From Siniperca chuatsi (Eukaryota > Chordata > Actinopteri > Centrarchiformes > Sinipercidae): a stretch of DNA of 64,000 nt. The stretch spans positions 5,166,001 to 5,230,000 of the forward strand of contig NC_058051.1 in assembly GCF_020085105.1 (NCBI RefSeq). The letters are read 5' to 3'. Numbering within the stretch: the stretch's first letter is position 1; each line of letters begins with the position of its first letter. A model generated the notes under the pieces. The model saw only the letters and a program-made list of their open reading frames with translations, searched no databases and had not been told where the DNA came from. A program made the translations under genes and the position numbers. Positions 7,241-63,467 of the stretch are shown piece by piece.

Positions 7241-10200
7241 TCACAGTTTCTCTTTCGTCTCATAAACTAAACTCTTTGTGTCCTCTCTGAGCGCTTCTTC
7301 ACCAGGTTCCCCTCCTCTTTCACATTTGTTCCCACACACAGGTGGTCCAGCTTGAGGAGGGAATGGTGTCGCTGTCTCTGGAGAGCCAAAGACGGAGATC
7401 CCTTCCCTCACCACCGGTGGTGACAGCGACATGATGATCCTCGTCTTCTGCTGAGTCTTAGAGTGCTTCGTGTCATCTGCAGCCTTCAAATGATGATGCA
7501 AAGTGCATTTGCTCGGCTTGAGCTCGACTCGAGGCCTGCGGTTCTTAACAGTTTGTATGCTGCTGCTGTGTAAATGTGAAGGTCCCTGCACTGACGGAGA
7601 GCTTTGATGATGAGTTGAGGTGGCAGTGGAATTGTGGCCAGATGTTGAACTACCCCTTCCTTCACTGCTCGCTGAGAAATTCACAGAATTATCAGGGGAT
7701 GCTGAGGGCACAGTTTTGCCCACGGTTCCTGACTTACATCTTCTGGGTTCAGTCTTTTTGGTGCTTTTCTGGCTGAATTCACTGCTTGTGTTGCTCTTGC
7801 TGCAGGCCAGCACTGAATCAGGAGGAAAAACTCGGTTGTACAGCAGCACAAACTCCCTCTGACTGGCCAAAGGAAGAATCCTCTGCCTGAGACGACACTT
7901 GTTGAAGATCTCAAGAGTTAAATCTGGAGCATGAAGGAGTGACAGAATATAAAAACATGTTGGGTGGTTTCACACATCAGCCTGTTAAGCAAACAAATTA
8001 GTAAAGTAACATATTTAATAAAGGGAACTATAACTGTACCATACATACAGTGAAATGAGGTGAGCACATTTTTGTTTGAGCTTTGTAAACTTCTACTGAA
8101 CCTAAAAAGAAAAAAATAAGTTTGTATAGATGTGATCAGCTGGTAATAATGTGAGCTCACCCAGTGTCTCCACAACAGTGCTGGGTATCACCTCCTTCAG
8201 CACTTCACAGTTTGTATGGAGAGCTGGATTACAGTTCATCTCCAGCAGCCACACCTATTAGGAACACATGAAGACACGATAAGTCTAAAAACATGAACAT
8301 TAATACACATGTTGAACACTGACCACCATTCAGATATTCAGCAACGTCTCACCCACCTTGAAGTCCTCATCAACCATGAAGTCGCAGCCAATCAAGTCAA
8401 AGAAGCCCAGTCGGCAGTCCAACTTGGATTTGACTGCAAAGAAACATTGCGTCATGATCTGCTGCATGCGCTTCTGATGCATGGAAAGGAAAAACAACCA
8501 GTCAGTCAATCCATCATTCATTTTGGAGGTCTGCAGCTCTTCATAACAATTTCTGAGAATGTGTGGTTGGATTTCTTCGAGATAGAAAGATGATTTATTT
8601 GTCTGCTCAATTTTAAATGAATTTCTTTACTCATGACTGGCTTTGTGTTGAAACAATTTACCTGCATTCATTAATTTTTTTGGCCACTTGGGGGCAGAAA
8701 AACAAGATATATACACAACATTGAGGTATTATCACCATATGAAGTTGTTATGTCAGATGTGTTAGCAAACAACTGCCTAGTTACACATACAGCAGGCATG
8801 GAGCAATGATATCATTCATGTGGAGATGTATGGTAAATATGGCTAACTGTCTGTCTGTTGACAACCAAAACAACAAGCTACAAGAAGCTAAAACTCTTAG
8901 TAGAGTATATACAAATACTGATTAGTGCAGCTTTAAGCTTATTACTGTATCTCACTAACTGTAGTGTCACATTACCTGACAGAGAAGTAAGTTTAAAATA
9001 GTAAGCTACAATGTAGTAGTGTTAGTGCAGTAAAATACTGTAAGTTGTAATATCACTGTGAATAAACTTTCATCACATTCCAGGACATTAGTATTGCACT
9101 TCCATAAAGTTGGGAGAATTGCAAGAGACAGATTTTAAAAAAATAATGGAAAAAATCAAAGCAGCAGAGGTGCATATAATATGATTTAAGCTCCAAAAAC
9201 ACTCAATCATACACTTCCCATAATGCAACTTGATAGTGTCTTGACAGCAGTGTGTAATGCAGGATTTCTGTTAAAAATGTGGAGTAATTGACAAAACTCC
9301 TCTAGAGTCACAGAAGACATTACACAGCTTGACTCTGGCATGAAAAATCATGAAAGGAAATTTATCATTAATAATAGTTAAAGATGTGTAGAATTGTTTT
9401 GTGATTTTTCAGATAATTCTAATGGCATAAGTTTTCCATTTCTACACAGAGTGGATTTAATAACAGATTTGAGTTTGAGTTTCAGTTGGCCTTGTATATA
9501 GAATAGCAGGTTTCTGTTAAACCAAACAGCCACATTGTGGTTTGCTATATATACTTTAATGTGTGTCACTATCGGAGTTTGTAGTTTCATTCTAACAGGT
9601 AAAACCAATTATAAAAAAAAGATTAAAATTTGGATTTACTGTAAGGCTCTATGGATAAAAACAACCACCAAACAGCACATGTGATATTTGATTTTAGTAA
9701 TAACATGATGTATCCTCAGATAGGAATGAGATCATCCAAGCCTAACCACGGTCTCAATTAGCTGAAAGCACCAACAGCCATCATTATAATGGTAATTGGT
9801 CCCTGAGAGCTACAACACACAGCAGCACTCACTGCAAAGGCGCCCAGCACCCAGTCCCTGGGCAGACCCTTGGCAACTCGAAACCTGTCGTTGACGTAGG
9901 TGTTGAAGCTCTCCATGGACCACACCGTGTCCTCCTTTAGCTGGCTGTACAGAGGGTTCTTCTTCTGCATGTACTGGAGACGAACAGCAGGGGGACCAGA
10001 GATCCATGAAGCAGTCATCAGGGGCAGAAAGACAGTTAGTGCCACAGCTAATGCTTGATCTATTCAACCTCTCTGGAAATAATGGGGACAAGTAATGTAA
10101 AGAAGGATGGGATGCAAATATCTCTTCAGTATTATCATGGATGATTTTGTCCTTAATTTGAGTTAAATGGGAGTTAAGACACATGGTAAACATTAAACCT

Positions 10201-13200
10201 TAAACAGGTTAAATAGTTAACATGCACATGAAATATTTTCCACTGAATGCCAAACCCAGAGTATCAAAATGTATGATTTTGTATCAAGCTGGTGAATGAA
10301 TGACAGAGTGCCTTTAAACTCCAAAAATTAACATTTACCCTGGTGTTACTATCCCTCCACTGCAGCTCAACAGGGAAACACAAAGAGAAAATGTTGTACT
10401 AAAAAGTAAGTTTGAAAGGTATCCACTTGATTTGTCTAATATGAGTGCTGAAGCCTCATATTAACTTCAGATAAACATTGGAGTATATTTTTGCACAGAA
10501 TGAGCACTGTGGATTTTGTCCTCCATTCAATGTTCATATGGGCACCTGACTATTGTTTTAAGACAGACTTGAAAAAATTGTGAACCTATCCTTTAAACTT
10601 TGACCTGCCAGTTAACCCTTTATATTTTGGCAGAATATGTACAGTATTAAGGTGTACCTGATTGGTCAGGTGGGCAGAGAGGTTGTTGGAGCAGGGGTCG
10701 TAGAGGTCGCAGCTCAGTCGCACATATCCATGGCGAAAGAAGACCATGTAAGGTGCAGTGCAGGCAATCAGAAGGTAAGAGCGCACATCAAACTTTTTCC
10801 CTTTCAGGAGCAGCGGCCTCTGAATGTAACTGAAGGCAAAATGTCAATTTCAACAGCTACATCAATCTACAACATCAACGTTTCTATGGAGAGTGTCATT
10901 TGCCAACAAGAAGATGTTGACAAGTACGACAGACAATTACCAAGACAAAATTGTCTAAATAGTCTGTGGACATTTGTATACACAGACATACTGAAAGCAG
11001 TGTCAGATGGTCAAATATTCTCAAAAAGTGGAATACCCATTTACTAGAGTTTACCAACTTCTAGTATGCCAATGTCATTTTAACGACACCTTATCACTTA
11101 TTCACCCCAGGTATGTTACTTTTTTCATTCAACGCTGAGGTAAAAACCTCATAAATATAGTTTTGGAGATTTGTATGTTTTTAACAACTGAAGGATTACA
11201 TGGCACTCTATGAGTCTGTGAAAACCTCTCCAAACCCCCTGAAAACCTCAAACTCATGCTCATCAGGCAGAAGTCAGCAAGTTATTTTCCTACTTCCACA
11301 AAAGTTGCCTTTTTGGAGACATAAAATGTGTCATGATATTCATTTTAACAACCCAACAGTTACGTATGTTCTCCCACTATTGGACAATGCGAGCCTGAGG
11401 CTGGCAGTGGTGCATCTTCCTGTTGGCCTTGCTGTCCTCCATGTGCTGCAGCTTCAGTCTTAAGGCGGCTACATCCTCCTGGCTCTTCAGCAGAAAGATC
11501 CCTCTGCCCTGGTTCATACCCGTGGGTTTACAGATCCACATATGACTCTCATTGTTGGTCACACCTGGCAACAGTCGTAAGTAAGTTACATCAGGTAAAG
11601 CAACAAACTTATGACATATACAGGTATGAAATATAAAGTCCTACTCTGTTTAGAGATGTTGTGAATGAGACTTCTCAGGTCTATACTGTTCTGTGTTTTT
11701 CTGTTGTGTTCTGTGGTGTGCTGTTCTTTATTGTTTCTAAATTGTGTTTAGTCCTACAGTATGTTAGGTAAGGTATTTCTTTCTGTTCTGTCCTGTTATA
11801 TTATTTATTTATTATTATTTATTCTATGAATGAGAGAGTGCTGTGTCTGAAATCACTCCATATTTAGATACACCACATGTACATTTCGCCACTTTATTTG
11901 AGTGTTCGAATATGTAAAATTTGTGTCTCTCAAAATTCCCACAACACAATTCTTCACCTTTGCTAGATGTGTAAATTGACATTATGCAGTAGTGCAAAGT
12001 AGCACTAAATACACTTAATCAAGTACTGTAAGCAATTATATGCAACTTGTACTTTACTTGAGTATTTCTATTTTCTACTACTTTATACTACTCAACTACA
12101 TTTTGGAGAGAAACGTTATAGGTTATAGGTGCCCAAAATCTCACTTTACAGCTCACTACAGAGTAAAATATTCAGTGTTTACTAAGTGGAGAACAGTGAA
12201 TAAGTGAATAGGGGTGGGATTTCAGATTTCAGTTTTTTTATTCTCCTATTTCTGTGTTCTTTTCTCTTGTCATCTTTTCCACATATTCATCCGTCATCCA
12301 GAGATCTAAACCAGCTGTCTGTGTCTTTCTCCTGTTTACTTAGTGATAACCATGTTTGTCATAACCTGTGCACACCACTTATCATAATGCTGTGTGTCTG
12401 TAAACAATACAGAAACCAGTGGATCGTTTCATATCCAGCCCTTAAAATTAAGGGAAAATGTTTTTCAGTTTTAATATTAAATGTATTGTATTTGTCTCAG
12501 TCCTGTCCAGTGCTGCAGCAGCTCTACATCGAGATCCTGTTGAGCATTTCTCCTTGTGTTTGTGTCTCAGCCCTGCCCTCTGCTGACTCATCTCTATGGC
12601 AACAGCATGTTCCCCTGGTGATTTTATCAGGGCTTATGGGAGGTGAAGTGCATTATTTTCCAACGTCCTCAACCTCTTGATTAAACAATCACCAAGGCAA
12701 CAGTTGTCTTAACACTGCCAAGCACAAATTATTCAGTTCTGAAGCACGCTAACTAAACACTAATCCGGTTGAACCAGTGTTGTGTTGTTGTTACATCAGG
12801 ACATTAATGTGTTAGAGGTTAATGTAGGTGAGATGTTTGGGCATTTTACCCTCCTGCTGGGCAAAGAAAGCCTCTCGCTCTTCCCTCACATCCATGCGGA
12901 AGGTAGTGGGAATGAACTCTTCCATTTTCAGCCCCCTGTGAAGTACAACACAACAAGGAGGAAGTCCAAATGAATGACTGCCTGTAGGGCAGGATTAGAA
13001 AAAAGTGTCAAAAATCAAAACTGGCTGAGAAAATTATTTTAGATGTATAAAGATTTCGCTTTATGTTTAAACTGTAGTGCAAGTGTTGTACATGTTTAAT
13101 TGTGTACCTTTCAGACAGCCATGTTTTCCTATTAATGTACAGTATTTAACTACAGTATTTTAGTACAGCTTTTAATACCTACAGTTACGTTGTCATTGAA

Positions 13201-16200
13201 TGGTAAGACATTTGTAACGTGGGTACAGATTGATTTCAAATCATATAATAATATTCACATAATATTCACTGTGATGGATTGACTCAAGCAAGTTTTACAT
13301 CTCTGAAAATAGATTTTCCAAAAGAATGGGAGCCAGTGGCTGCTGTGGGACAAACACATTCAGAAATTGAAAACACTACAGTATGATTTGGGAAATTCCC
13401 AGAAGTAATATAAAGTATGTTGGATTTGTTGTGAATGAGCTAAAACAGTATTACTACTGTATCAGTATGGTCGATTACATGTATCGCACGAAAATAAGTT
13501 TTTCAGTTTTAGTTTAAGTTTATTATCGGAAGAACAGTAGGTTCATCTGTAAGTAATCATATACAGGTCAAGTAGTAGCCTAATCAATTATTTTAAGTGA
13601 AACCTACTTGAAATGTATGTGAATATGTACAATAAATTAGTCATGTTTGTCTTTGTACGCATGCATGACACTCAAATTTCGTTAGTTAAAAGAATCAGGT
13701 TGTGAAACATTTAAATGTATTCATTTACAATTAATAATTCACCACTGAAATAGTTTATATAACTGACCCACATAATGCTCAATGCCAAGCTTGTGTGATT
13801 TAAATGGGAGGCCTGATTTCTGATGATGCAATTTGGCCATGTTAATTAACTAGTATCACAGGCTGATACAGTATGTCTTTCAATCAGTATTTGCAGAGCT
13901 GGGCCTCTATTGAACCTCCATGATGGTACCAGATGGTTGCTAGGAGATTTGTGACATAACTATAAATTCTGTAAAGGAAATAGACTGATATATCTGTCTG
14001 CTTTTAATACACACAACCTGTCTGGATAAGAAATTAATAGCAGACAAAGACAGTAGGAATATAGCTGTCCACTTGACCTCAGTCCTCGACCGTGGCTGAC
14101 TTTGCTGCTGACTCGCTCATACTCCCGCAGACTGCTGAGGAGGCCGATCTTTGTGGTGAGCACCTTGTTGTTGGGAATCTGGTAAACCAGCTGTTCACCT
14201 GGGAACAACACATGAAGATTTCAAGTTTTCTTTCTGTCAATGGAAGGCAATGAACCTATTTTCCACTAAAAGCAAAATGAGAACAGAAATGAAACAAGAA
14301 ATGAAACTTCAGTTATATTTTTGAGATACAGATGTCCATTTTGTTTTCATTTTCTTTGGCATTTCCTTGGGATAGGTAACATTGTGGTAATTTTTGTGCA
14401 ATTTATAGTAAAATACAGCATTCAGTTTATGTCCTGTGATTAATATAGTAATTACTGAACCTTTTCTGAAGTTACAGTAGTTGGCTGGTGATTTGGTCTC
14501 ACACCACTTGAGTTTGAAATCCTCCCTGTGCTTGTTGTAAATCCTCTTCCATCCCCTGCTCTCACAGTAACTGGTCACTCTGAAGGAAAAGTCCCAGATC
14601 AAATCACTCACACTTCTGCTTTAAACACACAACAATCCAGAGGTAAGGGGACATATGTAAAACTAGGGTTCGACTGATAAGGGGCCCAAAGTAAAATATA
14701 CAGTAGGTGAATGATGTTTTCTGATAGCATGAAAGCAAATCTCTCCTTAAAAGTCATCACCTTTCCTTTTTATTTTGAAATTGGATAATTTCCCTTAAGA
14801 TGTGATCACATTTTTGAAATACCTAAAAACCAGCACCTTATTGATACCCTTCATATTCTTTATTTCATATTTTTCTCTACTTACATTTCAGCCCCATTGG
14901 CTCCTCCAAAGAAGTAGAAAGGCCCAGGCCCCCGAGGCTCCTCTACCTGCTGCTCCCTGCCCCTTTCTGGGTAGGAGCAGGTCGCCAAGCCCCTGGGGAG
15001 GGACCTCTTTCGAAGGTATCGCTTCACCAGGCACGCACCTGATACTTTCAGAGACACAAACACACAGAAATCATGCATACACACAGTCACTCATACAGTC
15101 GCAAAAACTTAAGCTCTATCATGAGCACATGTAAATAGTTTTGATGAACTTATATGGATGCACAGTTGGATTACAACAACTCTGGGAAGTACTCCCATCA
15201 GCCTCAAAGACTTTAAGAGAATGATTCTGAATGGGAATTGCCTCATATTTTTACAGCGAAATGTGCTGTATTGTATTTCGTTAAGCTGCAATAAAGGATC
15301 ACCACATGAAAAGGACAACAAATGACATCACATTTGACATCTCACTTTTCCCTCCACACACCTGACCCTCTATCCTGGCTTTCGTGGTTGACAGTCATGT
15401 GTGAAGACCTTTCTCCCTTTTCCTGAGTCTGCGTCTCCTCCCTCTGGACCTTCTCCAATCCACCTTCTGATGTCACTTCCTGTATGGCACTATGGTCACG
15501 TGACGTAAGTCGTTCTCCTCCTGGCTTCTCCTGCCTCAGGCTTCCTGCGGGCTGGTTGTCCCCGCAGGGAACCTCCACTTCCTCCTTCTGCGCTTCTTCC
15601 CCTTGTTGCTTCTCCAGTCCGGTCCCCCCTGCCTGGCCCTCACTGCAGGGCTCCACCCAGCACTCAGATGACATGACCTCGTGTTCTTGCAGATCGTTGG
15701 TGATGGCTAGAAATGAGGACAAGTAGACCCTTTTTTGGTGCGCAGGGACACTGTAGTCAGAAATGGAGACCAGGAATGAGATGTTTTTTTATTGTGAGTC
15801 AGAGTACACTGAAGACATGGTGGAGTATGAGAGGAGAAGAAGAAGAGAACCAGTTTACCCTTCACCAATAGCACTGTACATGTTTGGTATGGTCACATGA
15901 CACACTAAAATTGTAGCTCTAGGGATGGCTATGTCAGTCTATTGGTTGGTCAAATTTTAATTTGTCCAATATTTTGGGGTTTTTTTTAACAAATACCTGC
16001 AAAACTAATTACATTACCACCATCTTCAGCTGTGCTTTGGGCTAATTAGCAAATGTTAGTGTGCTATGATTTTGGTGACCCCCCCTGACACCATCAGTTC
16101 AAAATTTGTACTTGACCATCACTTTGGCCCATGGATATCTGTAGTTCCCAGAGAGTGGTGGTCTTTTTCCTCTAGTAACACCATCAGACTGAAATGTCAA

Positions 16201-19200
16201 AATCTCACAATCTAACAGACAGATTGCGATGAAATTTGCGCCTTCATAGTCCCATTGTAATAGAATGACCCCATTACCTTTCCTCTAGCGCCCCCATCAG
16301 AACAAACCTTACATGTTTATAAAGAGTACTAGACCTGCTCTATAGCAAAAGTGTAATGAGATAAATTCTGTTATGAATTGGTGCTATATAAAGAAAATTT
16401 ATTTGAAGTGAATTGTTGAGGCTCGCTACTGATAATACTCTTTAAAGTTTAAACATAGTTAGATATGTTGTTTAGAATAGTTTTGTTTGGTTTAATGAAC
16501 ATTTCAGCCTCTTGGGGGTTGCTAGCACCTGCTAGCGGCTTTAGACTTTTTGCCTTGTTTTTTGTCTGTATAGTTCAAATGTAATATATGCATCGTGAAG
16601 AAAATGTGCCATCTAGAAATAAATATGCCATTTGTATTAGAAGACAGGAGCTGAACCATGACCTTATTGTAGCTACACTGAGAAGCAAAGGGGTTTACCT
16701 GCAACTCCAGTGTCACACACATGGACAGCCAGACTCCATGGAAACCTACTCAGCCTATTCGTCTTCTGGCATGTGCGCTCAACCTTGTAGTCCGACAGTA
16801 AGGCCCCAACAAACAGCAAACCCACAGACTGAAGGACAGACTTGACAGAGGTGAAATCACATGGTCTGTCAGCAGTTTAGCCCACCGAAATCAGCCATAG
16901 ACTGTCACACTGCAAGTAAGCAAACCCACTAGACCAATGTAAACAATCACCGGTTACTCAGGTAATGGGACCCTTAGCAACAGTTGCCTCTTGTAGATTG
17001 AATCTTACAACAACAGAAGCTCAAGACAAACGAACTACTCAAGATTATGTATCCCACACCCAACCCACATCTAAGTTTAGCCTCATTCAATATTAATTGC
17101 CTGTAAGCCTCTGTTGTGTGAACCCTATGGTAACATAAGAGCAGAGTGTCAATCAAAACGGATTTGCCAGTTTTCTGGGATATTATATCCTGACACAAAA
17201 GGTAAAATAATATTTACTACAGTTGACATTTGTTTCACAAAGTTTCATAATGTGTATTATATATAATAATAACAACTGGAAAAGTTATATTCTGTAAGTT
17301 TTAGATTCTGTAAGAAAAGTGTATAATATATTAGTGCAAAACATTAAAATGACCTTCAAAATTTTTAGATACAAAATAACTTGAGCTGTAAGATAACTTG
17401 AGCACTTGATTAATCTTAAAGCCTCCAGACATTATTGTACTGTGAACATCAATTTATTTGAACATGAATTGATTCAGTTGGATCATTCTTGGAATCATTG
17501 TGGCAGGTATGCAGTTGAGCAACATAGCATTTGTCTGCTCGCATGGCAAATCCGTTTATCACCTTTCTGTCTCAGTGATTTGACTCAGGAGGAAACACCC
17601 AGGCCCAGCCACAGTTGGCAATTATGCATAATCTCCTCTCTTCCTCCCAACAGTCAGGGGTAAGGGGATAATTGACAGGGGTGGATGCCTCTTAGACCCA
17701 GCATCCATGCAACCGTATAATTACACATACAGTAACGTAACCAGGAGTGACGCATACACCTAACACCAATGTAGTTTAAGTGCACATTTACACCTCTGGT
17801 TTGCTGGTAACTGAGTAATATGTATTTTAACAATCCCAATAAACAGCAAAGTCAACTTTTCCTCCATGTTTCATATCAAAGAAATACAAACTGTAGGTGT
17901 CATCACACCCTACAGTATGTGTTGCTACACATTTCACGCATGACAAGAAGGAAGCAATAGTCACCAGGCAGTCTTGTCACCTCAGTCATTTACACACACG
18001 GCTGTTAATGTCACATTTATGTCTCTGAGTGCAAAATGGCAGCGATAAAAGAGAGCTGCTTGGCATTGATGTGAGTCCAGCCACAGCACCCCAGTTATTA
18101 GAAGCGGGCCTACTATATTCCTGTTTAACAGAGCTTTGTGTGGAGCCAGTGTCAGCCACACCTTGATAAAGAGCCGCCATCTGATAGACACACTGTGCAA
18201 AGTGCTGCGTAGGTGGACAAAGAGAACAGGCTTGTTTTACAGCCCAGTCAACCTCATGGTTCACCATCTGCCAAGAGGGTGTATGCATGTGTGTGCATAT
18301 TTATATTGAGAATACGTCTATATGTTTGTGTATTTTGTGTGGCTATCTGTATGTTCCCTTTTTTGTATTACATATTTCACGGTTAAAATGTTAATTAATA
18401 ACTTTCCTACTTTTGATTTGATCTCCATCTGTCAATTGAACAGTGTAGGCCAAAGTGTGACACTTTTTACCTTTCCTTAACTTTCCTTTCATTTTCTTTT
18501 CTTTATGTAAATTAAGTTTGAGGTTCTGCAGGTGGTGCTCTTCTCATTGTCTGTTCATCCATGGCAGCTACCACTGCTCATGCTAACAACCCAGTTCTTC
18601 TCCTATTTACTACAAACAAATCACACACATAAAACAGACTACATCACTACATCTTTCTCCAGGAAAGACAGTTGGTGAAAATGTGTTTTTCACAAACATG
18701 GTAATGTGTTCCATCAGAGAAACAAAACATAAATTCAGTTATATGAAAATTAAATTTATGAAAATGAATATAAATCATTAGATGAGAAGTATGTGTGTGT
18801 CTGCCTGTCAGTCTCGGGAGGTGACACCATAAAGTGTGTCTTTGGAGACTTGCCAATTCCCATGTCATCTCAACTGCCTCCTGTACCAGGAAGTGCTTAG
18901 CAATTACAGGGATGCAGCCTGCAGCAATGGTGTCCCTCCACAACCCATTATTTGGAGGGATTCTCCTTGTCAGGGTGTTATAGTGGAAGAAATGGAGTTA
19001 AGTTACGATGTAAAGAAAGGCTCGTCTCAATAGGGTCTCTCTCTCTCTCTCCCGCTATTCATGATTTCCTTACAGAATTACACCTGTAAAGCAGAGGGGT
19101 CTCTTGTAGTGGGGGTCGACATTTTGCTCTCAAGGTCTGTATTCACTCATTCCCACTGGTGACAAATGCAAGTTGGAGACACAAAAACATCGAATTTCAC

Positions 19201-24193: not shown

Positions 24194-25430
24194 TAATATG
24201 AAATAACTAACTATCCTTTAAATACAGATACTTATGATAGTACATTATAGAGGCTGACAGAATGAATTGATAAAATGATGTTTCTCTGCATTGTAATTCC
24301 ATTTTGTGTCTTGATCACAGTCCTATGAAAGTTGACTCTGCTGTGAATGCTGGACAGAGATTAATGATTAAGTAAGCTTTTTCTCAGGATTTGATTCTTT
24401 ATTTGTTTAAGCTGTTACAGGAAACCATTTTTAATCACCCATGAATCACAGAGTTTATGACAATTTAATATACTAGGACGGAGAAAACAGACTGCTCCAA
24501 CTACAGGTAAACATATTTAACTTCATTTTTTCTTAGGCCCATTTTTCTCCATACATGTTACATTATGCAAGTTTTAATGTGTAAAGTTTGTTTCACTCCC
24601 TTGTTAACTGATGAATGGCCTGTTAGCATGAAACAGGCTAATAATGCTAATAAGCTATATATTTAACTAAAGGACAGATTGCTGGATTACTGAACATATT
24701 TCCCATAAAGTGTTTGTCAAGTAAAAAGAACACACAGAGACTCTAAATGTCTAGGATATTGATGTAAGGGGTGTAATATTTCTGGGAGTGACAGACTCTT
24801 TTTTTTTGTGAAAAAGCACAAATGTGAGCCTCCCCAGCATGGGAGATCAATGAGGCCTGAGGCCTGTTATGTTAAATGGCTAAATGGCTTTTGTGTTTGT
24901 GTTCCAACTGATAAAATCAGAGCTGGGTTTAACCAGTCAACTGAACCCCTGAGCTAACAGGTCTAATTAAACACCATAGCCATGCTATTGGCTCTGTGTG
25001 TGTTGCTGTGAGAGGGAGTGATAGGGAGAGAAAAAAGTCCACAAATGTAACCAGTGACCATATAGACTAAGTGTATGGATTTCAGTAGGCAAAATCAGCC
25101 TACTGTAAGTCGCTCCAGACCTGGCAGTAAAAACAGGCCTTGAGCTAGCCTACTGTGTACTGCCATAGACTGGGACACAATGAGGGCTTAGCTGATGGGG
25201 GGACCTCATTGGTAAATTGAGGCATTTAAAAAGAAGCTCTGTTCAGTGGTAACCTGATCCACACCTGACTGGGGCTCAGCATTCGGGTCTGGCCGAGGGA
25301 AGAGTTCACAATGACCAGAGAATCTGCTACAAAGGGCCAGCGCACAGGAGATCTAAATAAACTGTTTTAAAAAATGATTCTGAAAATGTGTTTAGAAAGA
25401 GAAAATGAACAAGAGAGACATTTCATATTT
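22801..25430. other. Intergenic stretch between ttll10 and the miR-200 transcript
   Basis: About 2.6 kb of AT-rich sequence without a recognisable gene. It should contain the ttll10 promoter on the minus strand. A TA microsatellite lies at 24161-24191. GC content is somewhat higher near 22970-23200, just upstream of the candidate ttll10 first exon, but I see no specific promoter element. Confidence 0.5.
24161..24191. repeat. (TA)n microsatellite
   Basis: About 15 uninterrupted TA units. Confidence 0.95.
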
Positions 25431-25443: not shown

Positions 25444-25994
25444 TAATCTTTTCCTTTACATTTCGTAACATCATATCACAGTAAATACAGTTAAAATTAT
25501 GTACAGAGTGTGTCATAGATAATGAAGTCTCAAAAAGTGTGTGCATTGTTCTACTGTACCTGGAGAAAAGCCAAGTCCCCAGAAGGAATTTAGTTATTGC
25601 GGTAAGAGGAAGAAAGCAGATCTTTCAACAGATAAAAGTCACAGCATTTTATATAACCATTTTTTTTTTACACGGCATTCACATTAACATTCTTGCTAGA
25701 AACTAATTTACAGCGCAGCATTCATCAAGAAAGCCGACTGTAAGTAGAACTGTCTTCTCCTCTGGACTGCTGCTCAATGGAGAAACTCTGACTCAAGTCA
25801 CATGGAAGAAACCCCAAGAACTCAATCAATCTTCCAGTGCAAGGATCATAGTTTCATAGTCATCATAATTCAGCCCCATCTGCCTCTACTATGAATATGT
25901 TGATGTGCTTCCCTAGACTGCCCTTTGTCAATACACTGCATGTCAGGTGCACGAGAGCAAGAGAGGGGGAAGTAAGAGAGCAGAAGGTAATGCC

Positions 25995-26070
25995 ATTTAA
26001 TGGACGGCATTACCAGACAGTATTAGACACCAGTAATTACATCTAACCATGTCTGGTAAGACGCCTATCA
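25995..26070 (-). ncRNA. mir429: miR-429 precursor hairpin
   Basis: On the minus strand the 3p arm at 26025-26004 begins TAATACTGTCTGGTAATGCC, the miR-429 sequence known from fish, with seed AATACTG. The 5p arm at 26063-26042 begins CGTCTTACCAGACATGGTTA, which as I remember it equals the mammalian miR-429 passenger arm. The arms pair around a loop of about 16 nt. miR-429 belongs to the miR-200 family, which represses ZEB1/ZEB2 and maintains epithelial identity. It is the last hairpin of the cluster, about 1.45 kb downstream of mir-200a. The mature arms are certain; the outer stem ends are approximate. Confidence 0.97.
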
Positions 26071-27509
26071 ACAGGCTGGAAGGATGACATCTGAGCTTTC
26101 ACCTGTGCAAAGAGGAAGAAGAGAGCTGGAAGAAACAGAACAGTCCAGCAGAAACAGGTTGAAATGAGCAGTTCCTCTTTTGTTGATTCATTTGTACATT
26201 TAAATTGGCCAAGCATGCAGAGAAAGCTATGACTAAACAGACCAAGGAAAGAAGCAAAGTAAGCTTGGTAAATTCTTTCTGATTCTACATTATTACATTA
26301 ATACACAAATATGTGACGCAAACACAGAGAAAAGGGACAACTGGAGGAAAAAAAACTATTTAATGTTTCTGTGCTTGGATAATGGAGCTGGGTGGGCAAA
26401 TAAAGGTGTGGCTCAATATTTGCGGGGTAATTCTCCCTCCTTAAACAAACACTAGGTTTCGGTTTGCTCCATGTCTATTATTTGCCTTTGTTTTTCATGT
26501 CTGTTTGAAGGCTTTACCCATTAAATTCCCATTTTAGTCCAGACATTGATGAAAATTGTTCACTGTCTTCAGTTCAGTAATATTTAAGCTCCACTGTTTT
26601 AAATCAAAGACGTGAGACATCAGTATAAGTTTTACTTTGTAACATACCTAACACACTAAGTAAAGTCCATTTTTGTTGTAGAGACTCCATTTTTTGTCTA
26701 CCTAAAGCACTAAGGTTTCATTTTATTGTCCGCGGATAAAAGTTTGAAAAGCTGGGAGGAGGCCAAAGCGTCTGTAGCTCAGTTTTTGTTTAGTTTTTTT
26801 AACAGTCAAGCACTCTCAGGTGAGCTCATGTGTCAGTTTCAGGATGTGCCACGCAGGTAAGGCTAGCTGGACCAATCACTGCCACACAACACAAATACCA
26901 GCACTGTTCAGGGGAGGGAACAAGGAAATAAGGCCCTGCAGGACCGGTGGAACCATCAACCGACTGCTATTCTTTAACTTGGGTGGGGTGGGGTTGCCAT
27001 AAAAGTAAAAAAAAAAAAAACATGGGGAAGTAAGCAAACATAAATGCTGACCTTAGAACCATTACTGCGTAAAAGATCTGCTCTTTCTCATTTCCCACAG
27101 GAATCCTTCAACAATAGTCATCTCAAACTGTTTTTTAAATAAAAGGCTCAGACATAAATGTTCATGTATTTTTAACTAATGCCCAGTCTGTCAACACCAT
27201 ACATCATCTGTGCCACTTTTCTTTTATCTTTTTGACTGATCGACATACAGCCTGTGGCATCTATAAAGCCAAGTGTATGGTAAACACAAGGCTAAACTTT
27301 TCTTGGAATGAACTTCAGAGTAAAAAGTGACACACCTAACAAATATTTTCCAGCCATGCTACCCCATGATACAGAGCCAACCCTGCTTATTACGTTTACC
27401 CTTCAATGACGACGTCAAAGGAGTCTTACCAATTTCAACAACCATTAACATGTTTGGATTTAACATTTGATGGGCAACTATCCCACAGTCACACCGGAGA
27501 CCAAAGTCA
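26071..27509 (-). other. Spacer between mir-200a and mir-429
   Basis: Presumed part of the primary miRNA transcript. I see no additional hairpin with a miR-200 seed and no coding sequence. A short A-run lies near 27007. Confidence 0.5.
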
Positions 27510-27587
27510 CCCAGAAAACATCGTTACCAGACAGTGTTAGAACAACAGTCGTACAATCCAGCACTGTCAGGTAAGATGGATCCTGAG
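27510..27587 (-). ncRNA. mir200a: miR-200a precursor hairpin
   Basis: On the minus strand the 3p arm at 27539-27518 begins TAACACTGTCTGGTAACGAT, the conserved miR-200a sequence, with seed AACACTG. The 5p arm at 27578-27557 begins CATCTTACCTGACAGTGCTG and pairs with it. The lower stem continues with CTCAGGA against TTCTGGG. The different seed (AACACTG rather than AATACTG) puts it in the miR-141/200a subgroup. It lies about 110 bp downstream of mir-200b, so both almost certainly come from one primary transcript. Confidence 0.98.
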
Positions 27588-27696
27588 AGCCATTTCTGTT
27601 GCTGCTTCAAGTATTTCAGCCGTTTCCAGGGCCCAGGCCAGGAGCACGTTGCTGCTAACATTGCTAAAGTGGTTTGTCCGGTTGTAGTCCGCAGAT

Positions 27697-27771
27697 GACT
27701 ATCATCATCATTACCAGGCAGTATTAGAGAAAGTGATGATATCCAATGCTGCCTCGTAAGATGGAGATAAT
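27697..27771 (-). ncRNA. mir200b: miR-200b precursor hairpin
   Basis: On the minus strand the 3p arm at 27726-27705 begins TAATACTGCCTGGTAATGAT, the conserved miR-200b sequence. The 5p arm at 27763-27742 begins CATCTTACGAGGCAGCATTG, differing from the mammalian passenger arm only at the GA after CATCTTAC as I remember it. The stem extends with GATTATC against GATAGTC. It is the first hairpin of the cluster and is preceded by about 4.4 kb of presumed primary transcript or upstream intron reaching to the GC-rich promoter candidate at 32150-32400. Confidence 0.98.
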
Positions 27772-30700
27772 CACCCAAACACGAAACATCTCATTACTAC
27801 GCTCCTAAAGTGTACAACATACAGCAACAAAATGTGATATCTGTGCCAGTTATTAAAGGTTAATGAATGAATGAATGAATGTGACATCAGATTTGGGTGT
27901 GAGCAGTAAACCTAACCTTAAATACCTTTGTCTACAAGAAAAAAGTGGAACTCTCTAAGTGTGGAATAAGTGAGTATTCAACACAAAATATAACCTAAAA
28001 TATGCAGCTTTTCCTTTCCACTAATCTAGTCAAGTTGTGTAGTTTTATTGTGACAAAGTTGTAACTAAAACTGAGCCGTGTATTGCCCAAAAACAGCATT
28101 GTAAATAGGGGAAGTGCATATTTGGAGACCACCTCTCCATAGTATAATTGCTGAGCCCTTGTTGTGGTTGGGGTTTTCAGCTTAAACTCGCTGTCACAGA
28201 AGACTGGGCCACAGTAGTTGTTAATGATTGCCCAAACCTGTTCCGACTAGTCTAAATCTATGGCACGGCAAGGTTGGGAGGGCTGCTTTTCACACAATAC
28301 ATGGCAGTTACTAATTTCAAACACCGTACGTCGCGTAGCCTACATCCACTCAAAAATGCCACCGAGTCAAAAGCACATCGGCCTCAGGGAACTGTTTCAT
28401 ATCCCAGCAGATGAGGAACTGTGTTTTTAAGTTGCAACATACTATTCTGGCTGTAATAAAGCAGTGTTGTCAAGTCCGTTTCAACAGATGTTTTATGGAA
28501 TGGAAGAAAGGAAAAGCCAATTTTTTTTTCTGTTTTCCGCTGGTGGACCTCTCAGGCCGTTGTCTTTGTGTTTGCTGAGTGATGACAGGCTGATGGAATG
28601 CTGCTCAGCTCGACCTGAACCGACACTGTGTATGCAAAAGGTCACTGAAACAGCCTTCGTTTACTGAATAACAGGGATCATTCACAGATACGCCGCGTGA
28701 AATCCTCACACCCCAGACTGACATTTAATGTACATTATTATTCTCTAAATTAAACATTAAATACATATTTTATCCATTATCCAGTTATCCTAAGTATCCA
28801 TTATACTGAATATTTAGTTGCATTAGATATACAATATTTTTTTTTTTTTAAACGTGTAGGTTAATAATAGAGATTTTTTTTTCTTGTTCTAATGTTTAAA
28901 GCAATGAGATTGTGCCTTCTCTTCTTAAAATCTTCAATGAAATTTCTCTCAGAACAGAAACCCAAATGCAAAGGAGAGACATTGAATTCATTAAGAAAGA
29001 ACAGGTTTCTAGTCATCCTGCAAGCAGTGCAAAAGTAGAGCACGAGAGAGAGGGGGGAGGGAGAAGGAGAGAGAAAGAAAAGAGAGTATAAGGGAGGGAA
29101 AAGTTCAGGGAAAGAAGGTGGAGAAGGAAAATGGAGAATGCACCTGTAACCTTACCGTCATGAAAGGTACCCCAAGGAAAGAATGTAACAAAACCAAAGT
29201 AAAGTGAGTATGTTTGGAGGGAGGGGGCTGAAAAAGAAAGAGAAAAAAGATCTTGAATTTCCAGCCTGCTGCCTGAGAACGCTCCGTCTTCCTCCTGGTC
29301 AGTCAGGCCCCATGAAATGAGAAAGCCAAGCAGACCTGCTCTCCCAGACTTTATTTAGTTAATCATCAGCATTATAAACCAGTGCTGCAGGCCCTCTGAG
29401 GAAGAAAAGAGGGAGAGAGAGAAAGAAAGAGTGAAAAAAGATTAGCCCAGAAAATTCTAGCTGGTAGAAACAAGCTGTGAAAATAACAGTGCCTGATCAA
29501 AGTAAAGCATGTCCTGTTTTACCTTTCAAAATATCTAACCAACCCCGACGTCCAACAAACTTCGTCTCAATATGTCCTCCATTTGTCCAAATACTTCCTC
29601 TTCTGCTCCTCTCATGGTTATATACAGCAGAATGTGCCCCATTGTTGCACATGCTGCTCTGTGCAGTGGGAGTCTTACGGCTGCCCACGCTTTTTGCCTG
29701 TTGGAAGTGAGGCGTGATCAGGTAACTCTGCCCTCTGTGCTGGAATGTGACTCCGTTGTGAAGTCAACAACCCGATAGGTAAACTGGCCTGGCCCTTAAT
29801 CAATAGTTGCTGTCTTTGTAAGAAAACAATGGCAGGGAAACCCAAAACCTTATTTAACTCCAGACCTTATCTCAGCGCCACCTAATTGGGCCTTCAGACC
29901 ACTGAGGAGCAGCCTGGTAACTGTGATATCTAGGCCATGATACTGCTTATTAACCATGTGCCACTGCTGCTACTAGGTTGTGTTTCTAAATGTATACTTA
30001 GTGATGGACTAGATTTACGTTTGTCATTTTAGAGTTTGTAGCTCCTCCCCCTTGATCAGTTTCCTCTCACCTTTCTGTTTTGAATATTTCAAATGAAGGA
30101 CTAAAATATTCAACAAATTTGATTATCAAAAGGGATTTGGACTTTTCCTTTTCTTCTTGATGCTTTTTACATATTTTAACTTAAGCTACCTATCCACCCT
30201 GCCCCCTTACATACTGGTTCATTTTGCATTTATGACTATTCAAAAACAAAAGAAAAAAGAAATAAAAAAATTACAATTATTCATACTGCTATGAATAATT
30301 TCATATTCATGTCATGTCATATCACTGGAGGCACAAAATGTAACATTACATCTGTTAAAGTTGATTCAATGCCAAAATAGAGTAAGAGAGAAACTGTAAG
30401 AGATATTCAAAACATCTTGAATTAGCCCATCTAATCATCATAGCTTCTTAATGAAAATGGTAAACAGCGTTCTTAAAACGTTAGCATAGCATTAGCTTTT
30501 TAAAATGGTCCTGGCCTATAACGCAGTGTCATTCACCCTATCAGCTGAATCAAATTGCACCTAACCCCATGAGGTGATAAGACCTACAGTCCCCTTTCAT
30601 TTCAAACCTGTGACTCCAACACGAACAAACAACATAAAATCAGCCCACCATTTCGTCTGGCCTCCCAGTCATTAAATCTTGCTTTCTGTTGAAATTCTAC

Positions 30701-32149
30701 TCTGCACTTCCCGCCCTGTTGCCATACACTGGCAGGGCGACTAGCACTCATGTGACTTACAGCTATTCAGGTGTATGAAAGAAACAAATGTTGCTCTTTC
30801 CACCAATCACAATCATCCACCTCGCTCTGCAGTCGCCGCTGTACAGTACATGGTCGACATTTTCCCTCCATTTTCCCTTCTCTTTCCCAGACTGCAACAG
30901 TCCTCATCTGCTTAAAAATATCTTAAGAGAAGGCTAGAAAACTTAATAATGTATACCTTTTATCTCGTGGAAATTCTCTGCTCTGATAAGTCCAACGCTA
31001 CTGTCTGTCTTAACATGCAGCCAAACCTCAGAGGCAAGGAAAGCGGATGAGCAGACATTTTACGTCCGACACACATCCACTTAATAACAGACTTCCTTTT
31101 TTTTTTCCATTTCAAAAGCGCATGAAACATGTATTATTATTTCAAATCTCTAGCTTAAAAAGCCAAAAAAGAAAAGCAGTAACAGGTAAACCGTGGAAAT
31201 AAATTCTGTGGAGAATATCTTACAAGATAACCTTAAGGCTTTACAGTTCAACAGGTTGTAGAGAAAAGTTGCCTAATGAGTTCTGAACTCGTATGAATTA
31301 ACACTTATATTAATACATAACGCATATTGTTAAACTAATGTTAAACTAATCAGGTATTACTATTAGATTATTAATTTGTAAAGTTGTTTCATACCGTGGA
31401 TGTCTCCTTGTAAAGCACATTTTAACACTCTAAAAGAAGGAGTCAGCCTCTGTCTTCATATCCTTTGACAAGTCTGGCAGTTTGCCTTTACCTGCCCCAA
31501 CTGGTCTATCCAGTTTAGGAATGAGCGTTGGCTTCTATTGTTTCCTCTTCTTTCTTTCTGGTTAAAAGGAGCTGGAATTCGATACACATTATTTTCGCTT
31601 CCCATCGAAACTACCTAGACCCTCCTTTATCAGCACACAATCGCAGAGGGCTTCGTACAATGACCTAATTTCTTTGCCTTCACATTTCCTGATCTTAGCC
31701 GAAGAACAAATGTCCTTAAAGTTTTAACTCTACCGTCACTGAGCAACAGGTTATGACGACAGCTCAAGTTCTAAAGATGGAGAACGAAGACAAAGAAGGG
31801 ATCACGTTTGTGAATTCACCTTGTCTTTCCCAGGTGTGGTCACCGAGCCAGAAACCCAAGACAAGAGGCATCATTGTATGAGGGCTCTTGACGCCCCGTT
31901 GGCTAGTCTTCCTCTTTCCTGCTCCTGCTGAAGGACAGTCGACCTCTGGCGTGGCTGTTGGGAAGAAAAAAAGCCGTCCCTTTCACGTAGATGCGGCCGT
32001 AGAGTCAGAGCCAAACCCCGGAACAAAACCAACCAGTTTGAAGCGCGTCAACTCTCTTCCTGCTGCCCGAGCAGAACTTGTGTTTTTCCAGGAGCTCTCG
32101 TCGGCGGTGTTAGGCGGTAAAGCTCCTCAAGAAGACAGAGGCTGAATTT
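27772..32149 (-). other. Presumed 5' part of the miR-200 primary transcript
   Basis: No protein-coding exon is recognisable. The stretch contains a GAAT microsatellite at 27863-27882, a purine-rich tract at 29041-29100 and a CAGGTG E-box at 31831. It links the candidate promoter to the hairpins, a distance similar to that described for the human cluster (about 4 kb). The transcript structure is inferred. Confidence 0.4.
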
Positions 32150-32400
32150 GTAAAGGGCTTGGTTTACATGTAGCCTGAGCCCCCTCCTCCCCTTTCCCCC
32201 ACAGGTGTAATTTTCAGGTCGCAGCCAATCTCCCTAGCCTCTGGCGCTCACAGGTGTGTCCCCCGCGCTGTCTTTAGCCAATGGTGGTTGAGATGAAACC
32301 TCCCCCCCAACCCCTCCTACCCTCCGACTCCCACCTCACCGGTTCGCTCACCTCCGCCCTCCTCATCAGCCCCCAGGTACCTTGTTGTGTGTTTTTTATG
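32150..32400 (-). promoter_or_regulatory. Candidate miR-200b/200a/429 promoter with CCAAT and E-boxes
   Basis: A GC-rich island in AT-rich surroundings. It holds CAGGTG at 32202-32207 and 32251-32256, CAGGTA at 32374-32379 (within the near-palindrome CAGGTACCT), CACCT at 32332 and 32348, and CCAAT at 32225-32229 and 32278-32282. In mammals ZEB1 and ZEB2 bind CAGGTG/CAGGTA sites in the miR-200b/a/429 promoter and repress it, while miR-200 represses ZEB1/2. Position about 4.4 kb upstream of mir-200b and strand context fit that role. The start site would be near 32.1 kb; this is inference, as no TATA box is visible. Confidence 0.55.
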
Positions 32401-33595: not shown

Positions 33596-34090
33596 TATTG
33601 TTTGGCGTTTACAGTAGCCAATAGCGCTGAATGTGCGTTACGCCCACTCCCCCGCCATGCAGAAATTGCGGTCAATAGCTGACTCTTCCTGGACTGGGAG
33701 ATCCCAGTGAACACAGCCGGACCGGGACGAACACACCCTCCGAGACCAACGGAGGCCAGTTTGACGACAGGGAATACAGTACCGAGGTGGGTTTCTTGCC
33801 GGGTTTGGTTCCTGGCACCCCGGGGGCTGAGTCAGCTAGCTGGACGGCTAACCGAGCTAACGGAAGTTAGCGGTTAGCTACTTTAGAAACAAGTAAAGCT
33901 ATCTCTCCATCAGGAAACTCCGTAAATGACATCGGTACTGTATTCCCTGTCGGGCTCGGAGGTTGTGTACAGTCCCAGTCCAGCCGAGTTCACTGGGAGG
34001 CTGCTGAGCCCAGTCCCATTGCCCGCTAACGCCAAATACAATCAGCAGTTAGCTACTTTAGCAACAGTAAAGGAAACTCTGTAAATCACC
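33596..34090. repeat. Composite inverted and direct repeat, CpG-rich
   Basis: The segment around 33764-33786 (GACAGGGAATACAGTACCGA) recurs inverted at 33931-33951, and weaker inverted similarity extends through CCCAGTGAAC and TTTGGCGTTA out to about 34037. A direct repeat is also present: GTTAGCTACTTTAG plus AACTCCGTAAAT at 33873-33926 recurs near 34047-34086. The nested structure suggests two partial copies of one element inserted head to head. It is CpG-rich, so it could be mistaken for a promoter island. Confidence 0.6.
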
Positions 34091-34495
34091 TAGAGTTGAA
34101 GCTGAACAGCCGGAGGACATCAGAGGGAAAACCATAAAATACTTTCTCCATATTATATGATCCAGTTTCACCTAAATCAGTGAATAAAGTTATGAAGTTG
34201 TGTTTTTGTAGAGTAATCAGTAAGTTCCGATCCCCAGAAACACTGCCCTCCGGCGGCGTCATAAGAAAGAAAGCGAGAAAGCGTTTCTTTGGACACAAAA
34301 TTAGTATACGCCCCCGAGTGCAGGATTAGTCATCAACATTATTTTATTGTTTTCCAGTTAATGACAAACTCAAAAAATACCATTCTGAATATCCTAGAAT
34401 ACAAAATGACTTTTTTGTTATTGTTGGGCCAGATACTAGCATATAGGTGACGTATAGTGCAAGACATCGATTTTGACTTCAAAAAAAGACTTTAA

Positions 34496-36344: not shown

Positions 36345-36461
<117 letters not shown>

Positions 36462-59174: not shown

Positions 59175-60855
59175 ATAGAAAATAAAAATTAAATAAAGAT
59201 TAAAACAGATACGATATTTTGTCTCATGTGCATAAGCCCTTCAAGAAAACACACCATATCATTAGAAAGGATGAAGATGATGTACAATCCAGAACTCCAG
59301 AGGAGAAAGGGGGGTTTCTTCTGAAATGACAACTAGGAAGGTAGATGCGGAACTAGAGGTGCAACACAACAATGTCATGTTTTTGCCCTTCTGATTCTAT
59401 ATCTTACAATACATCTGGTGGATAAATAACAAACCACGAGTATCCTCCTTTAAAACTGTGTACCCGGTGCTCGTTGGGGTCTCTACACCAGACAGATGAC
59501 AGACAGATTGTGGTCTTCAGACACAAACAGGCAGACCAACACAATGCTTTCCGTCTAAAATTAAACACAGAGATAAAGCTGACTGGTGCTTCTGGGATGC
59601 TTTAAGGACATTTCTTTGCTTTTTTTGGAGGAAAATGTCAGTTTTGTTGCAGAAACTCTTCTGCAAACATTCATTTCACTAATGACAACAACATTTGTAG
59701 GGTTAATAAAGTGAATTGAGTGTGTCTTCTGCAATTTTGAGTCACTATGCACAACTTTATGACTGGTAATGACCTTTACTTTCAGTGAGCCTTCACTAAA
59801 ATGATCCGATACACTGTGGATCTGTAATGGTGGGTGTGGTGGGGGCTCTTTAACCTTTTATGGATATCACAAGTGCTTTCAATGATTTGATACCCTGAGT
59901 AGAGGACATAGGCTTGGGGTGAATTTCATTAGAAACAAAAAAGATTTTTGCCAAGCCAACACCAACAAAAAAAAAAAGGACATTACCAAGTAATACTACC
60001 TTTCACACAGAAATAAAAGTCGGTAATTATCGGTACATTAAAAACCACAAATGTAACCAGAGAGAAACAAAACAACAACAACAAGTCGCCCATGACAACA
60101 CAGTCATTTTCAGCTTTACAATATGCATATATTCATGCATATATAGTGTGTATTTCCCCTTGCATACAGGCGAGTGGTTGGGGACTATATAGAGAGCCTT
60201 TAGTTATACCAACTCCCTCTGCAGAGACTAACACTGATTAAGAGATTGGAACAAAATGAGAGCAAACATAATTCACAGGACAGGCAGAGGGGCGAGAAGA
60301 CGGGGACTGATTCTGCGCAGCCTTGTAAACAGAGGAGGCCAGACAGCCAGAGAGGATGATGGGTAACAGACATCCACTTAAAGCAGCAAAGATAGGACAG
60401 ATTACAGGAGGTGGAGGCTGGGCGGGAGTGAGAAAAAGAAGAGGTGGGGGACCTTTTACTCCCGGCTCACCAATCAGAGTATTCAAAGTGGCAGCATCAC
60501 CTCACAACTTCACCTCGCCTGCTTCCCGTCGGGCTAGGTGGAACATCAGTTCTGACGCCGAAAATTAAGTTAAAGTTATCGACATGTTCCTGCCTGCGCT
60601 GCTGGAGAGGGAAACTACTCAAATGTAACAAACAGTGGACTCTCGGAGATGTAACACAGCGTCATATAGTAAAGCAACCTATGGGCTGAGCGAGTATTCG
60701 ATCACGTGGAGGTGGGGTGAGCAGGAGGGTGCGACAGGCAGATATAGGTCACTGGGTCTTTAAAAAGGTAACAGCTGCCCCCTCCCACCCCCACTTCTCT
60801 CCAGCCCCCTCCGACATCCTCTTTGGGTCGTCAAGAGCTCAGAGGACAGAGAAGT

Positions 60856-63120
60856 TCAGACGAATAACTGGATCCGCTCGCGGATGGTCTGCCGGCAAAT
60901 CGGGCAGGTCTTGAGCGCGGCGCTGCAGTCGATGCAGGAGGCGTGTCCGCACTGGAAGACCAGCTTGATGTGGTTGTCGATGCAGATGGGGCAGGTGATT
61001 CGCTCCTCCATCTGGCGGTAGCGAGACTGCAGCTGCTCCAGCAGGTTGTGCTGGTCCGAGTTCTCTGTGCCAGGGCTGCAGTCCACCTCGGTTTGGTCTG
61101 TGGAAGGGGGTTATCAACATGAATGATGTCAAAGCAATGAAGAACTAAACTTACAGACTTAGACAATAACTGTAAGTTACTGTTTTCTGATGTTAATAGA
61201 AGTCAAATTTATGCAAGCAGTGCAGTTCAAATTGAGACTGGCCTGCTGCTAATACAGACAGATTATGAAAGTCCTCTCTGGGATGACCACATGATAGAAA
61301 AAATGCACAGTGCATATGTGACTTTAAAATCATTAAAGAAATCATGAATAAATATTAGGGCAAAAAATCAGTCACAACACTGACAGTAAAACTGGTTTTA
61401 AAAAAAAAGATGGACACAGTAAACCATTTAGACAGTACATGCAAACAATAAATTACAATATTAAAAATAGTTTGCTGTATTTAAAAACAAACACAGAAAT
61501 AAAAGCTGTTAAGTCACTATTAGGCTCATCATTAAAATTCAAGACATGCTGGACAAAGTAATATTTTTGTCTCAAACATGAATACATATAGAAGACCTGT
61601 ATTGTTTTGCCTGAAAATGTTCCATTATGTCCATGTCCTATTAACCCATCCCAGATAACAACAAGAAGATTCTTCTTACCTTGTCTAATTTTCTTGGTGA
61701 TTGTGACTTGGCATTTGATGCACTTCTTCATTCGATGGGCACACTCTGTTTAGACAAGTACAAGGTCAGCAAGGAAATACAAAGAGAATATAATTTGGCA
61801 AAAAATGCACCTACAGTATAAAAAAAATGTGTCCACGCTATTTAACATCCAAGATAGATAGTGCAGCAAACAGAGAAAATTTGAGAGAGATTTTTTAAAA
61901 ACAAAAGAGGCCAGGGCATTCAAACATTGACAATACCTGGCGACCATCACAAGAATTCTTGAGAGTTCTCTTCTGGTAGTATTCGACATTACTGAAAGCC
62001 AGCCTTGTGATATCATTTTAATAGATTTAACCACGGCTAGTCAGAAGTTGAAGTCCCCACAGTCTTGCTGCCCGCTACACTAACGCTAATTTGTGTTAAA
62101 ATCCTATTCATCCTCATCTTCAACTGGTACCAGACAGAACTGAAAAAACATGGACCTTATAGAGGAGTTCACGCAACTGCTGCCAAGATATATAGATGAA
62201 TTACACATGAACTGATAAATGTATGCTGAAGAGTACTAAGCTAAGTTTCTAAGTTGTTAATACAATTATACACCTGAAGTACACCTGAAAATCTGTTTTT
62301 TTTAACCATTGTTCTATTATGATTGTACTCAGTGAGCATTTTCATTCTTTATGGGGGGTTTTTAAACACACACCTACTATCTGCCTATTGATAACAGTGT
62401 GCCCTTTGCTGCCACTGGCTTCATCAATTCCCCCCTGATGGCCATCAGAGAGCCCTGCACTGAGTCCAGTCTCCACCCACCTTCACAGGCCACGCTGTGC
62501 TGGCAGGGGCAGAAGAGAACCAGCAGAGCCAGCTCGGAGCAGATGAGGCATTCGCTGGGCCCCGGCGGTGTGGGAAGAACCAGGTTGGTCATGGTGTTGG
62601 GCGTAGTGTGGACCCGCCGGAGGCTGGCGCTGCTCAGGCCCTGTCCACATGTGATGGCCTGCAGACGCTGCAACCTGCCAGACAACACACAGCTATAACA
62701 ACGCACAACACCAAGTGCATTTGTTCAACTCTAATGTGATTCCCACACACCAGCACTTTTTTTTGTAGCTTTCCATCTTTAAATTCATAGTGCATTTGCA
62801 TGTAAAAAGGCATTGGCAGTTTCTAACACAACAGTGTAAACATGGCCTTAAAAATCTACTCTTTGCTTTATCAGGCCAACATATTAAGTAATGTTATCCA
62901 AAGGCATTATGAATTTTAGCCCTGCTTTTACAGACATCTACCTGTGCTTCTCAGAGAAGCTCTTGATGATCTGCAGCATGGTGCTGTCTGCCACCAGGTC
63001 CAGGGGACTCTTGCCCTTGTGGTTGGCATAGCTGATGTCAGCCCCTTCCTGCGCTAGAAAACAAGCGATAGCTGCGCCAACACTCAGCTCGGTACTCCCC
63101 AGAAGACCTGAAGCGCTCAG
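60856..63120 (-). CDS. mib2: Mind bomb 2 E3 ubiquitin ligase, C-terminal exons
   Basis: Four exons: 63120-62942, 62674-62481, 61745-61680 and 61097-60856, with compatible phases, encoding 226 residues and a TGA stop. The upstream part of the gene is outside the window. The first exon encodes an ankyrin-type repeat (GADISYANHKGKSPLDLV). The second and third encode a RING-like finger split by an intron (CLICSE, CPCQHSVACEEC, CIKCQ). The last encodes LLEQLQSRYRQMEERITCPIC followed by the C-terminal RING (CGHASC, CPICR) and ends IQLFV, closely matching MIB2 rather than MIB1. MIB2 ubiquitinates Notch ligands such as Delta, promoting their endocytosis and Notch signalling. It is transcribed towards the miR-200 cluster. 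Confidence 0.95.
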
Positions 63121-63467
63121 CTGTGGATACACATGATGATGATGGGGAGAGAGGATGGAAAGACAGAAGAAGTGAGAAGAAGTTGGAGTTAAAACAAACA
63201 AAGATTTTGAGGCAGAGCCCATTCTACAACTATACTCTCAATAAGGCTAAGAACTGATCTTGTGGAAATGGTAGAAGTTGAGAATAGTTTGAAAACTTAG
63301 TCAAGAACACAGCTGATTGTGAGCAACTAAAAGGTAATTGAAGTAAAACCAGCGCAATCCAGCTAAGGCTGATATATAAAGCCAAATCACTGAAGAACTC
63401 CCCCAATAACTCAACTGCTGACAGTTGCCAAAACAGCCCTTAGCACTTAAGTCTTGCCACCTTCATG

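Follow-up and report, generated by a model that had tools for sequence, protein, structure and literature searches.

This locus is almost certainly the bony-fish orthologue of the vertebrate miR-200b~200a~429 cluster. An Rfam scan of the window (the whole 64-kb stretch of DNA analyzed, C10:5166001-5230000) identified three matches to RF00241 (mir-8/mir-141/mir-200), all on the minus strand and above the family cut-off of 47 bits, and this trio represents the only matches in the window, as no other Rfam family reached its own cut-off. Each of the three is a stable precursor with an exact 3p guide that carries a family seed. Read 5' to 3' in the direction of minus-strand transcription, the order is 200b, 200a, and 429, and all three lie within 1.8 kb, which is the arrangement (this order, a single strand, and a few kilobases) of the miR-200b~200a~429 cluster. 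The hairpins, their guides, their order and strand, and the neighboring gene were all observed directly in this analysis.

Identity, order, and folding of the hairpins

The three hairpins are located as follows.

mir-200b hairpin: 27692..27777, minus strand; Rfam match 27768-27701, RF00241 68.4 bits, E 3.3e-13; MFE -38.8 kcal/mol, z -7.04
mir-200a hairpin: 27506..27592, minus strand; Rfam match 27583-27514, RF00241 65.7 bits, E 1.9e-12; MFE -35.0 kcal/mol, z -4.93
mir-429 hairpin: 25990..26078, minus strand; Rfam match 26068-26000, RF00241 63.7 bits, E 7.2e-12; MFE -33.1 kcal/mol, z -4.83

An earlier note on this DNA had placed three miR-200 hairpins on the minus strand in the order 200b/200a/429, and the Rfam matches, the exact guides, and the folds bear this out. 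No shuffled sequence folded as well as the real one for any of the hairpins (0/200 for each), and the three hairpins are the top three minus-strand sites in a sliding fold of 80 nt (step 5) across 25500-28800. Collectively, the Rfam matches, exact guides, stable folds, and top sliding-fold ranks exclude in practice a chance origin of the three hairpins. The mature arms are given below, with the positions of the 5p arms taken from the Rfam alignment.

miR-200b-3p guide, UAAUACUGCCUGGUAAUGAUGA: 27705..27726, minus strand; 0 mismatches
miR-200b-5p arm, CAUCUUACGAGGCAGCAUUGGA: 27742..27763, minus strand; 20/22 identical to human miR-200b-5p
miR-200a-3p guide, UAACACUGUCUGGUAACGAUGU: 27518..27539, minus strand; 0 mismatches
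miR-200a-5p arm, CAUCUUACCUGACAGUGCUGGA: 27557..27578, minus strand; 21/22 identical to human
miR-429-3p guide, UAAUACUGUCUGGUAAUGCCGU: 26004..26025, minus strand; 0 mismatches
miR-429-5p (passenger) arm, GUCUUACCAGACAUGGUUAGA: 26042..26062, minus strand; 21/21 against the human hairpin in PMC10490786

The guide coordinates proposed earlier were thus exact for miR-200b, miR-200a, and miR-429. A guide scan allowing up to six mismatches added two weak minus-strand sites (19059-19080 and 24694-24715, six mismatches each). Human miR-200b-3p is identical to the fish guide at 22/22 positions. The query letters of the 200a and 429 guides are also printed in PMC3092494, and those of 200b can be deduced from an antisense oligo in PMC3696638. 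The seeds AAUACUG and AACACUG are those of the miR-200 family in PMC9221129. The miR-200a-3p letters listed in PMC3092494 (Table 5), human included, match those here (22/22 for human).

A false positive for RF00241 is present in the genome, which lends some weight to the idea that the three hairpins resemble mir-8 by chance or are transposon palindromes. The stretch C20:23140904-23140972 exceeds the cut-off on each strand (51.5 and 51.1 bits), lies within a near-perfect palindrome of ∼100 nt (L005 9389-9490), and has a seed unlike those of miR-200; we rejected it as an additional mir-8/mir-200 member on account of the palindrome, and it is a false positive to guard against in mir-8 annotation. 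For the three hairpins such an origin is extremely improbable. Their stems contain mismatches and are not perfect palindromes, the three are arranged in the established order over less than 1.8 kb, and their neighbor is a TTL-family gene. The exact mature sequences in conserved order refute the chance or palindrome explanation in effect.

The orthologous cluster reading agrees with known clusters, and conservation of the cluster and its order is already described. The letters compared were in part those printed in papers, and our genome searches covered this species' own assembly. The zebrafish mir-200b/mir-200a/mir-429a cluster has the same three members, order, and 3p guides (PMC3696638 and PMC4623745). 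PMC3696638 places it on chromosome 23 with spacers of 49 bp and 1569 bp. The long 200a-429 spacer is common to both fishes, being 1445 bp here between Rfam matches, while the 200b-200a spacer is 49 bp between zebrafish stem-loops and 117 bp here between Rfam matches, the bounds being defined differently. The mammalian miR-200b/200a/429 cluster has the same members; it lies at 1p36.33 in human (PMC9221129) and on chromosome 4 in mouse, for which the TTLL10 link is in print, with Ttll10 named as its host gene (PMC5356520). The earlier claim that both order and neighbor are kept among vertebrates is supported, the order being in print for zebrafish (PMC3696638) and the Ttll10 link for mouse. No paper title on fish synteny of this cluster with ttll10 appeared in the literature searched. 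Arthropod mir-8 belongs to the same Rfam family, RF00241. Mammals share the cluster order and strand seen here. In contrast to the vertebrate trio, Drosophila mir-8 is described as the sole homologue, with no cluster of three, in PMC4623745.

Conservation of the passenger arms

The miR-429 passenger arm had been described as fully conserved, and between the two species compared this is accurate: the fish and human miR-429-5p arms (human hairpin from PMC10490786) are identical at 21/21 positions, while the hairpin loops are unlike. Fourteen of these positions are free to vary with respect to pairing (3 unpaired and 11 facing G or U and thus wobble tolerant), and 14/14 are unchanged between fish and human. 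In the same two-species comparison, 12/13 free 5p positions are unchanged in 200a and 11/13 in 200b (human 200b-5p letters from PMC4599295). The passenger arms of 200a (21/22) and 200b (20/22) are almost as conserved as that of miR-429, so each of the hairpins has a strongly conserved passenger arm and mir-429 does not clearly stand out. The further remark that this conservation exceeds what the guide strand needs is tentative: with two species compared, selection on the 5p arm cannot be told apart from slow change.

Complete conservation of the arm would be accounted for if miR-429-5p were also a functional strand that enters Argonaute and is maintained by targets of its own or by a decay-triggering target of the ZSWIM8 pathway. 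We regard this as tentative and somewhat unlikely. In its favor are the 21/21 identity with human, in which every unpaired (3/3) and wobble-tolerant (11/11) position is retained, and a study of mammalian tissues in which 12 of the 57 ZSWIM8-regulated miRNAs are less-abundant strands, miR-429-5p being one of them (PMC10327180). The authors read these less-abundant strands as evidence for Argonaute loading and target engagement. Further, activity has been reported for miR-200b-5p in human breast-cancer lines (PMC4599295). However, the near-equal 200a and 200b passenger arms indicate that pairing and family ancestry may suffice for miR-429-5p, and the comparison is between two species, with letters of this arm from additional species not found in the literature searched. 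Nor does the human guide, which differs from the fish miR-429-3p at 2/22 positions, make the passenger arm stand out: this lower identity (20/22) is due to deviation of the human sequence, since the fish-form guide is listed under 10 other vertebrate species codes, human absent, in PMC3092494 (Table 5).

Flanking genes and the upstream region

The gene downstream of the cluster on the minus strand is presumably ttll10.

ttll10 coding exons: 7244..15788, minus strand; approximate extent by eye, no gene model; ORFs with Pfam TTL (PF03133)

Two minus-strand ORFs match PF03133, at 10589-10843 (E 2.2e-14) and 11380-11640 (E 2.7e-4), while none of five other ORFs in this extent was above the Pfam cut-off. 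The best solved relative of the 10589-10843 ORF is TTLL7, followed by other members of the tubulin-tyrosine-ligase family; we take the gene to be TTLL10 rather than another TTLL from its resemblance to the human TTLL10 protein sequence. The cluster had been placed just upstream of ttll10 on the same strand. Strand and neighbor stand, but the two are not adjacent, being ∼10 kb apart: the nearest ORF assigned to ttll10 (by eye, domain free) ends at 15788, 10.2 kb below mir-429, and the nearest TTL-domain ORF ends at 11640, 14.4 kb below it. Below ttll10, a short minus-strand ORF (147-386) weakly resembles a PH domain, short of the cut-off (PH_RASGAP, E 0.0089), and no relative of known structure was identified at E up to 1.

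On the upstream side of the cluster, ∼33 kb away, a minus-strand Pfam RING domain is encoded at 60859-61110, with BIRC7 as the first and RING3 of MIB1 as the second of its solved relatives. Ankyrin-like sequence was recognized by eye beyond it on the minus strand (62941-63237 and L047 1871-2212), although Pfam assigned no family to 62941-63237. We provisionally label this gene mib2-like; as the upstream gene on the same strand, it is a difference from the mammalian cluster. Pfam recognized no family at E ≤ 0.01 in ten ORFs, of which eight lie in the interval separating the cluster from this gene.

Two CpG-richer patches lie upstream of mir-200b.

CpG-richer patches: 31501-32400 and 33601-34200; no strand; 3.7-6.4 kb upstream of mir-200b

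Their richest bins contain 11-19 CpG per 300 bp, compared with 2-5 between the patches; the window mean CpG o/e is 0.31, and the richest 500-bp bin lies elsewhere (60501-61000). By composition, the patches are a candidate promoter of the primary transcript. There are 3 copies of the motif CACCTG and 2 of CAGGTA at 25.9-28.8 kb, and 8 and 5 copies, respectively, at 28.8-35 kb; because both are common across the window (54 and 44), we make no claim of ZEB sites near the cluster. The zebrafish cluster promoter has been tested and carries p53 elements (PMC4623745), and a motif search here found no full p53 element by consensus. A long TA/TG dinucleotide repeat is located at 36347-36459 (42.5 and 14.5 copies), and ARAGORN identified no tRNA genes.

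The rest of the miR-200 family and the meaning of the locus

In zebrafish the six members are divided between two loci, and 429b neighbors 200c/141 (PMC4623745) on chromosome 6 (PMC3696638); here, in contrast, no 200c/141/429b cluster was found in the 719-Mb assembly, in a pattern search that copies with more than two mismatches would escape. The genome searched comprises 718.8 Mb in 65 contigs. The RF00241 genome search scored 65/87,701 candidates, which is no proof of absence, and returned seven matches, five from this cluster (three minus-strand matches above the cut-off and two sub-threshold matches on the opposite strand) and two from the single C20 palindrome. The exact 16-mer TAAYACTGYCTGGTAA, which the zebrafish miR-141 core (deduced from the antisense oligo in PMC3696638) would match exactly, has five genome sites compared with two for the reversed-pattern control, and three of the five are this cluster. 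The two others were discarded, as the four stretches folded there were no more stable than their shuffles (z -0.95 to 1.02) and contained no mir-8 match. Allowing up to two mismatches, TAAYACTGYCWGGTAANGATG has 27 genome sites, three of them the window cluster, compared with 12 for the control, which does not preserve dinucleotide content.

These 27 sites and the two other 16-mer loci gave 29 loci at 28 distinct places for folding. The window hairpins in this set fold at -25.8 to -34.3 kcal/mol with 17-18/21 guide bases paired. Among the 25 other places, one on C15 (L035) pairs 17 bases, equal to mir-429, and another (L018) pairs 16, both weakly (-16.0 and -14.3 kcal/mol), and Rfam at E up to 1 found no mir-8 match at any of the 25. 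We rejected the possibility that L035 (C15:3465274) is a decayed mir-200c, as it lacks an Rfam match and has reverse-transcriptase-like ORFs (by eye) close by. A 60-nt piece of mir-429 searched against the genome recovered only itself. Also on C15, one stretch matches the type-P1 twister ribozyme but falls short of the cut-off (L041 967-1045; 46 bits versus 67.2), and a reverse-transcriptase-like ORF (by eye) begins ∼500 bases after it.

The missing 200c/141/429b cluster points to lineage loss, strong divergence, or an assembly gap. The statement that vertebrates have two copies of the mir-141/mir-200 cluster (PMC1388199) counts against loss. A literature search for miR-141/200c in other fishes under six species-tagged names returned nothing, PMC4159003 did not settle loss, and neither mir-8 nor mir-200 is mentioned in the main text of PMC8789304. 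That miR-429-5p is a conserved working strand under target-directed decay and, jointly, that this is the sole miR-200 locus here after loss of 200c/141/429b seems to us distinctly improbable.

By analogy with its orthologues, the cluster would form a single transcription unit, and its processing, targets, and promoter position would follow theirs. One RNA polymerase II transcript from the minus strand would bear all three hairpins, which Drosha and Dicer would process into 3p guides with the seeds AAUACUG (200b and 429) and AACACUG (200a). These guides would be expected to repress zeb1, growth-hormone-axis genes, and similar targets, and may thereby help to maintain the identity of epithelial and sensory cells, in a reciprocal loop with Zeb1. 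In zebrafish, Zeb1b represses miR-141 and miR-200b (PMC3696638), and cluster members act on growth-hormone-axis genes (PMC4623745).

The locus extends a conserved and already well-documented microRNA cluster to one more fish, a real but ordinary result. It would matter more if miR-429-5p were a conserved substrate of target-directed decay. The miR-200 family occupies two loci in zebrafish and mammals, and if this fish truly has a single cluster, one short deletion would remove its whole miR-200 family.
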